Assembly (NCBI GenBank): GCA_949743265.1
Contig: CATJSX010000193.1
Location: forward strand, 1-64,000
Direction: 5' to 3'
Source: an uncultured Peptococcaceae bacterium
Lineage (GTDB): Bacteria > Bacillota > Peptococcia > Peptococcales > Peptococcaceae
Length of the DNA: 64,000 nt
Shown here: positions 20,966-23,083 of the stretch, piece after piece
Layout: each line of letters begins with the position of its first letter
How positions within the stretch are numbered: position 1 is the first letter of the stretch
Translations under genes and position numbers: made by a program
The notes under the pieces: generated by a model
Database searches by the model: none
What the model was told of the DNA's origin: nothing
What the model saw: the letters and a program-made list of their open reading frames with translations, nothing else

Positions 20966-22276
20966 TTAAAAAATTTCATTTCTAAATCGTTCAAACAAAA
21001 ATATGCCAACTAACATCACGATAATTTCTGTAACAGGAAAAGAAAGCCACACTCCTGTCATTCCCCACCATTTAGCGCCTAGCAGAGCGGCAGGAACGAT
21101 AATAATCAACCCGCGCAATAGCGAAATTGCTTGCGCTGGCTTACTATAGCCGAGCGAAACAAAAAAACTAACCAAAATCAAATTGACGCTGACAAAGAAA
21201 ATGGCTGTAAAGTAAAGTTTAAGACCCCAAACGGCGATTTGTTGTAAATACGGTTCTTGTGCACTATTAAATAAAGCCGCTATATGATCGGCGCCAATAA
21301 AAATACTGCCATAGATCATCACTGCCAACAACAGCCCCATCACCAAAGCATATTGCAACAGTTGAACAATTTGGCGTCGCTGCTGACGACCGTAAGCTGC
21401 ACTCAATAAAGGCTGAATACCTTGCGCTAGACCGTTAAAAACAGCAATAATAACCAAAGAAAGATTGGCGACAATACCATAAACCGCAATACCCATATTG
21501 CCTGCCAAATGAAAAAACGTATCGTTAAAAACAATCATCACGATACCACCAGAAACTTCTGTCAGCATAGCAGGCAGTCCCAGCGCCAACAAAGGCAAAA
21601 GCGGCGTTCCTCCTTTGAATCCCAGCCAATGAAAATAACGTCGTTTGCTCAACAAATGAATCAACATCAACGATAAACTGATAACAGGCGCTAAAGCAGT
21701 AGCCAAAACAGCGCCAAACATACCCATCTGTAACGGAAAGATAAACACGTAATCCAAAATAATATTAGCCAAATTACTGCCAAGCATTGCCATCATTGCC
21801 AGCTGCGGCGCACCATCATTGCGTACAAAAGTAACAATTATCTCATTAAAAATAAATAACGGCGCAAAAAACAACAGCGTTTGCAAATAAATTTTGGTCA
21901 TAGCAAAAATTTCCTCATCAGCCCCTAACAAAGTTGTTATTTCATCAGCGACCAATAAGCCCAAAAGAACAAAAACAACAGCGAAAACCACAGCAATATT
22001 GAGCACTACAGTATAAGCGCTATCGGCTTTTTGTTGTTTCTGCTGACTTTTAGCCAGCGAAAACGTAACTGCGCCACCCATACCCAGCATCAATGCTGAA
22101 GCATGGATAAATGTATAGATAGGAATAGCTAAATTGAGCGCCGCCAAACCTGTGTCACCCAACCCTTGCGCAATAAAATAAGTATCTGCCAAAATATAGC
22201 AGGAAAGTCCCAGCATACCCACAATAGTCAGCGATGTGTACCGGATAAATCGACGAAATATAGCCTGATCAGTCAT
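20966..22276 (-). CDS. MATE family efflux transporter (MepA-like)
   Basis: A 436-residue MATE antiporter with 12 predicted membrane spans. Conserved features include MLGLSCYILADTYFIAQGLG (the N-terminal substrate-gate region), GLAQGIQPLLSAAYG, and FSLAKSQQ. It is distinct from the MATE protein encoded at 6892-8274. A strong promoter and a 125-base leader with an intrinsic terminator precede it, so its expression is probably switched by a small ligand; guanidine is a candidate because guanidine-IV leaders control mepA-type genes. The RBS AGGAGG lies 7 bases before the ATG. Confidence 0.88.
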   Translation of the reverse strand: MTDQAIFRRFIRYTSLTIVGMLGLSCYILADTYFIAQGLGDTGLAALNLAIPIYTFIHASALMLGMGGAVTFSLAKSQQKQQKADSAYTVVLNIAVVFAVVFVLLGLLVADEITTLLGADEEIFAMTKIYLQTLLFFAPLFIFNEIIVTFVRNDGAPQLAMMAMLGSNLANIILDYVFIFPLQMGMFGAVLATALAPVISLSLMLIHLLSKRRYFHWLGFKGGTPLLPLLALGLPAMLTEVSGGIVMIVFNDTFFHLAGNMGIAVYGIVANLSLVIIAVFNGLAQGIQPLLSAAYGRQQRRQIVQLLQYALVMGLLLAVMIYGSIFIGADHIAALFNSAQEPYLQQIAVWGLKLYFTAIFFVSVNLILVSFFVSLGYSKPAQAISLLRGLIIIVPAALLGAKWWGMTGVWLSFPVTEIIVMLVGIFLFERFRNEIF

Positions 22277-22402
22277 ATCAATTCCTCCTGTTTAGTCAAA
22301 TAAAAAAACGCCAGTACTTTCTATCTCCTAAGGCCTATCGATAGAAAATCCAACGTTTTTATTCATTACCCGGCGGCAATGAGTTTATCAATATGATTAT
22401 TT
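22277..22402 (-). ncRNA. Riboswitch-like leader of the MATE gene (guanidine-IV candidate)
   Basis: Minus-strand leader. A hairpin TCATT-gccgccgggt-AATGA (22382-22363) is followed at once by a terminator hairpin (22360-22302; inner stem TTTCTATC / GATAGAAA, then a run of seven T). The terminator loop contains GGCC, complementary to GCC in the first loop, so a kissing-loop is possible. The short two-hairpin form and the MATE target match the published guanidine-IV (mepA) class. I am matching from memory, so the class is tentative. Confidence 0.5.
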
Positions 22403-22408
22403 TGGTCA

Positions 22409-22437
22409 AGCATACCATAAATAAAAAATAAAGTCAA
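22409..22437 (-). promoter_or_regulatory. Promoter of the MATE leader
   Basis: TTGACT (22437-22432), 17-base spacer and TATGCT (22414-22409) on the minus strand. Confidence 0.7.
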
Positions 22438-22450
22438 TTGTAAAGCGAAT

Positions 22451-23083
22451 CTATTCTCTCCTATCAAATAAAAAATTGTAAGCATAGATAATAATGATCC
22501 CTGTATTGATCAGCGAAATCAAACATTCCAAAAAAACCAAACAATGAAACCATGCGCCGTAAGGAATCAAATCGCCATAACCAAGGCTGAAATAACAAAC
22601 GAAACTAAAATAAAACGCCGTAGCAAAATCCAGCAAAACAGGCTGATAATTGAACATTGCCGAACGCAATCCTTGCGCATAGCCGGAAAGACTATCAATC
22701 CACAAATAATAGAGCGTAAAGAAAAAGATAATAGCAAGAATCATCAGTGCCGCCAAAAAAACAGCCGTCAGCAGCTTTTGACTTTCACTAAAACGACGGC
22801 TAGGCAAATCTGTCAAAAAAAGCCACATCAATTTGTACCATTGCGGAATCAAAAGAAGCGAATTGATGGTACTGTATAAATAAAGCGCTTGCCGATATTG
22901 GCGCAACGTCTCAAGGGAAAAAAGATGAGTAAAACAAATCATCTGCCCCAATCCAAAAAGAAATGGTCCAGCAAAAAGCAACAACCGCATCAAAAATCCC
23001 CGTTGCCACAAGCTGCTGCTAAACAACTGCCACCAAATGAACAATAACAAAAGAATTTGCAGCGGAAAGAAAAAAGTCATCAT
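22451..23083 (-). CDS. Potassium-channel-like membrane protein
   Basis: A 210-residue protein with about five hydrophobic segments before a two-helix pore module at residues 155-205. The pore has YFSLGYGDLIP, a variant of the K+ selectivity filter (usually TVGYGD), followed by the inner helix FLECLISLINTGIIIIYAYNFLF. This is an Ion_trans_2-type pore with four extra N-terminal spans and no cytosolic RCK domain. It is likely a K+ channel of unknown gating. The AAAGGCGG ribosome binding site precedes ATG ATG. Confidence 0.7.
   Translation of the reverse strand: MMTFFFPLQILLLLFIWWQLFSSSLWQRGFLMRLLLFAGPFLFGLGQMICFTHLFSLETLRQYRQALYLYSTINSLLLIPQWYKLMWLFLTDLPSRRFSESQKLLTAVFLAALMILAIIFFFTLYYLWIDSLSGYAQGLRSAMFNYQPVLLDFATAFYFSFVCYFSLGYGDLIPYGAWFHCLVFLECLISLINTGIIIIYAYNFLFDRRE

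Follow-up and report, generated by a model that had tools for sequence, protein, structure and literature searches.

A probable guanidine-IV riboswitch upstream of a MATE-family efflux transporter gene in an uncultured Peptococcaceae bacterium

Guanidine-sensing leaders and the layout of the element

Guanidine-IV riboswitches (GGAM-1, or the mepA motif; Lenkeit et al. 2020, PMC7736828) are built from two hairpins with conserved loops that are joined by a loop-loop pseudoknot, the 3' hairpin being a terminator. The sugE/emrE leader of Raoultibacter timonensis binds guanidine in vitro, with a KD of 190 uM by in-line probing (PMC7736828). In the published class, guanidine promotes the kissing loop and so blocks formation of the full terminator, while elongation of P2 shortens the linker between P1 and P2 and strains the kissing loop (PMC11611296). 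The related Gd4v elements, whose ligand is unknown, share this overall architecture and terminator platform and also have MATE genes among their associated genes; in the transaminase-linked subset of Gd4v the terminator invariably bears an additional hairpin and position D1 is a base other than G (PMC9788692). Guanidine-II riboswitches (RF01068) likewise use a loop-loop interaction for guanidine sensing but have other sequences, with ACG loops, and no match to them was found in the window (the whole 64-kb stretch of DNA analysed here) or in the rest of its genome.

We found a two-hairpin element at positions 22384-22302 on the minus strand of the window, between a promoter-like site and a MATE transporter gene (Table 1). 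The preliminary description, which named no strand, had listed a good promoter, a short hairpin with a loop, a terminator hairpin with GGCC in its loop and a downstream MATE gene, and each of these is present on the minus strand. The loop of P1 can also be given as GCCGCCGGGT, and 26 nt separate the U-tract from the start of the MATE ORF. P2 alone has a fold energy of -20.1 kcal/mol, and the 110-nt leader is unusually stable (z=-3.9, with equal stability in 0 of 200 shuffles). A simple terminator scan reported no terminator at the element, because the scan accepts loops of 8 nt or less and loop 2 is longer. A 210-aa protein with an ion-channel domain (weak Pfam match to Ion_trans_2) is encoded co-directionally at 22451-23083 (minus strand) and ends just upstream of the riboswitch promoter.

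Table 1. Positions of the leader features and of the gene downstream, in window coordinates
Feature	Position	Strand	Evidence
Promoter-like site TTGACT-17-TATGCT, extended -10 (TG)	22409..22437	-	Consensus scan, 9/12 matches; consensus match only
P1 hairpin UCAUU-GCCGCCGGGU-AAUGA	22363..22382	-	RNA fold; covariation, 82 homologs
P1 loop GCCGCCGGGU	22377-22368	-	RNA fold
Kissing-loop pseudoknot 5' half, GCC in loop 1	22372..22374	-	Pairs with 22335-22333; covariation G-C/A-U and C-G/U-A
Kissing-loop pseudoknot 3' half, GGC in loop 2	22333..22335	-	Covariation
P2 hairpin, the intrinsic terminator stem, 21 bp, one bulge	22304..22360	-	RNA fold; covariation
Loop 2 GAUAGGCCUUAGGA, 14 nt, contains GGCC	22339-22326	-	RNA fold
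Terminator U7 tail (T7 in DNA)	22302..22308	-	Sequence
Ribosome-binding site AGGAGG	22284..22289	-	Sequence
MATE-family efflux transporter gene, 436 aa, regulated gene; ATG at 22276	20966..22276	-	ORF; Pfam MatE 5.3e-30

Homology to sugE-linked guanidine-IV elements

Pattern and profile searches both singled out the element. A motif pattern, partly tuned on the window element, occurred once in the 64-kb window and in none of 100 shuffles. A profile built from 11 sugE-linked elements, with the window excluded, gave a sole match in the 64 kb, at 22381-22316 on the minus strand (E=3.7e-15), and a leave-one-out profile built from all of the other homologs again had the window element as its sole match (E=1.1e-15). 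The model R3, whose training set included the window, matched the genome from which the window comes at 4.5e-19; R3 matches in the class below about 28 bits mostly had no motif or no terminator and were counted as chance, with one exception (L185, described below). The element agrees with all of the positions that are invariant across 13 sugE-linked rows, i.e. its highly conserved loop nucleotides match those of the sugE-linked examples. It differs from them in that a MATE gene is regulated instead of sugE, and in that an A replaces the common T at one variable position of loop 2; otherwise nothing essential differs. The 3' hairpin resembles an intrinsic terminator with a U-tract, and the gene directly downstream is of a kind typical of the class (SugE, MATE, GNAT and others).

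Rfam 15, searched at both gathering and relaxed thresholds, gave no informative match for the window element; weak matches to snoRNA families were dismissed as chance. Clear homologs of the element were also without a match, as was the element that immediately precedes emrE/sugE in R. timonensis, which our pattern scan does recover just in front of that gene. The R. timonensis locus agrees with the published construct in gene and species, and the agreement is to be read at that level. Since this sugE-linked element is missed by Rfam as well, the family seems to be absent from the library; Rfam 15 thus appears to hold no guanidine-IV model, and its silence does not suggest that the window element is foreign to the class.

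The pattern scan of public genomes returned at least 119 stretches, of which at least about 109 loci were kept; ten of the 119 listed matches were dropped as chance, eight after inspection and two (L141 and L158) by taxonomy alone. Most homologs were gathered by a pattern that fixes the loops, and loop conservation among them is therefore partly a matter of construction. The same leader precedes MATE relatives in Acetoanaerobium, Monoglobus, Enterococcus faecalis and E. raffinosus, and three SMR (sugE) loci with the element came from the phylum (L026, L035 and L038). Among the matches listed, the closest recognised gene in the 1.2 kb downstream of each of the 109 homologs encoded a MATE protein in 53 cases, a PNPOx-like protein (pyridoxamine 5'-phosphate oxidase / NimA-like) in 18, an SMR protein in 17, a putative B3/4-domain-like protein (our own naming) in 8 and another protein in 13. 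The placement of 18 and 8 of the 109 listed elements before PNPOx-like genes (e.g. L056, L066, L077, L117 and L123) and B3/4-domain-like genes, respectively, suggests guanidine-linked roles for these two families. On the Selenomonas plasmid pSRC1 (L013) the element stands before a gene of the pyridoxamine-oxidase family and combines CCGCC with AGGTC.

Covariation and the proposed switch

We scored the structure on 82 homologs, using 7 pairs of P1, 8 pairs of P2 and the 3 pairs of the pseudoknot. In this set 90.6% of cells were paired, and two-sided changes were seen in 292 cells, where shuffles gave 87 and slid-register controls no more than 75; the covariation score was 0.498 against 0.183. 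Two-sided changes occurred at all 7 pairs of P1 and at all 8 pairs of upper P2, the latter being 95% paired. The way in which the homologs were selected does not account for the covariation of the stems, because the pattern fixed the loops and not P2 (apart from its closing base) or outer P1.

The pseudoknot joining the two loops also covaries. The combinations found were GCC/GGC (89), ACC/GGU (21), GCC/GGU (7) and, in one lineage, GCU/AGC, so that one pair is G-C, A-U (21) or G-U (7) and another is C-G or U-A (in sequences retrieved with the model and through the protein); an A-C mismatch was not seen among the homologs examined, an apparent exception in L054 being a parsing error. The A-U cases represent few evolutionary events, as many of them come from close relatives. 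In genomes of the Selenomonas family there is a guanidine-IV-like lineage (L206-L232) in which loop 1 is CCACCGGGT and pairs with AGGTC in loop 2, which amounts to a clean compensatory exchange at one pseudoknot pair. The window does contain both a promoter and a strong terminator here, as would be expected if the leader were a plain promoter followed by a constitutive terminator or attenuator without ligand sensing. However, a plain terminator would leave the conserved P1, the conserved loops and the loop-loop covariation over many genera unexplained, and we regard this reading as extremely improbable.

The preliminary description had named the element a candidate guanidine-IV riboswitch, on its size, its two-hairpin form and its target gene. 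The sequence, both stems, the covarying pseudoknot, the terminator platform, the types of gene downstream and the homology to sugE/emrE elements, that of R. timonensis included, support that assignment, and on the anatomy, homology, covariation and gene association observed here we put the probability at about 0.9 that the element is a guanidine-IV riboswitch (GGAM-1, mepA motif) controlling the MATE efflux pump via transcription termination. By analogy with the published class, guanidine would be the ligand, the mechanism would be steric and the element would most likely act as a transcriptional ON switch. Without ligand, P2 would zip to its full 21 bp, leaving about 2 nt between P1 and P2 and straining the kissing loop, and RNA polymerase would stop at U7. 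In the presence of guanidine, loop 1 (GCC) would kiss loop 2 (GGC) in an interaction that holds and is stabilised by the ligand; lower P2 would then stay unformed, the terminator would fail and the pump would be transcribed. The P1-P2 spacing, which is 2 nt with the full P2 and about 13 nt with upper P2 only, fits the published strain model as far as anatomy can indicate.

A Gd4v-type variant, i.e. the same architecture and mechanism serving another guanidine-like ligand, has to be weighed against this assignment. Gd4v is the closest relative, occurs in Firmicutes, barely responds to guanidine and also precedes MATE genes (PMC9788692). The extra terminator hairpin of Gd4v (D2) is absent from the window element, however: just 7 nt separate the pseudoknot GGC from the 3' side of P2, and the 14 nt of loop 2 are unpaired, without a hairpin. 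At D1, transaminase-linked Gd4v never has G and sugE-linked guanidine-IV always does; a non-G D1 was not seen in the window element, which has G wherever the sugE-linked set always has G, D1 being taken, from the text of the paper, as one of those positions. These differences make a Gd4v-type variant very unlikely. Gd4v was set apart here by its published description, and none was recognised in the Selenomonas family in the R3 search. A MATE leader in Limosilactobacillus fermentum (L010), whose loop 1 reads GTCGCCGGGTCC and whose terminator loop contains an internal hairpin CCCACTTGGGG, resembles that description and is a possible Gd4v element.

The genome that carries the window has one further copy, divergent in sequence (L185, G000:C104:18122-18201; 20 bits with R3), with loop 1 GCCATTGGGT and loop 2 ATTGGCGCATAGAA, in which the terminator and U-run are kept. 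It is followed by a MATE-like N-terminal remnant (MKKFFQYVTLNILERLGLSY) and then by an intact gene of the PNPOx family, and its loop signature was found in 0 of the other 398 genomes in the phylum sample. L185 is probably a decayed copy and less probably a variant of altered specificity. Since this degenerate copy sits in the same genome, decay does occur in the lineage, and the window element could itself be a guanidine-IV element that has lost switching. The window copy, however, retains all of the conserved loop positions, both stems, the promoter, the U-tract, the ribosome-binding site and an intact MATE ORF, which makes such decay highly improbable.

The MATE pump in its host

The guanidine-IV assignment, which we prefer, does not make the gene mepA. 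The MATE protein scored 101.5 bits against NCBIfam MepA (cut-off 850) and reached the equivalog cut-off of neither MepA nor FepA; 'mepA' therefore suits the motif name and not the gene, which is a MATE-family gene and not MepA proper. The protein shares about 50% identity with element-linked MATEs from unrelated genera and 31-38% with those of its own taxonomic family. MATE relatives from that family have leaders without the element, which counts against the class reading. The MATE gene and its switch may have been acquired together.

No SMR-family protein was found in the host genome at E<=0.001, and searches for riboswitches of the guanidine-I, -II and -III classes found none there; these absences are likely and not certain, because the assembly is 98% complete and in 208 contigs. 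As neither an SMR gene nor one of these riboswitches was detected, the MATE pump may be the main guanidine exporter of the host. That it is the sole riboswitch-controlled guanidine exporter in the genome, replacing SugE/Gdx in this role, is a tentative proposal that we hold to be somewhat improbable; if true, it would offer a clean system in which to prove guanidine export by MATE proteins.

The element is an ordinary, good new example of a class already described. Such riboswitches are small and hard to spot, and as the class is seemingly not covered by the standard RNA library, routine genome annotation tends to miss them. In this case the host, with no detectable SugE-type exporter, would provide a simple test of guanidine export by a MATE protein, a question posed in the guanidine-IV literature.
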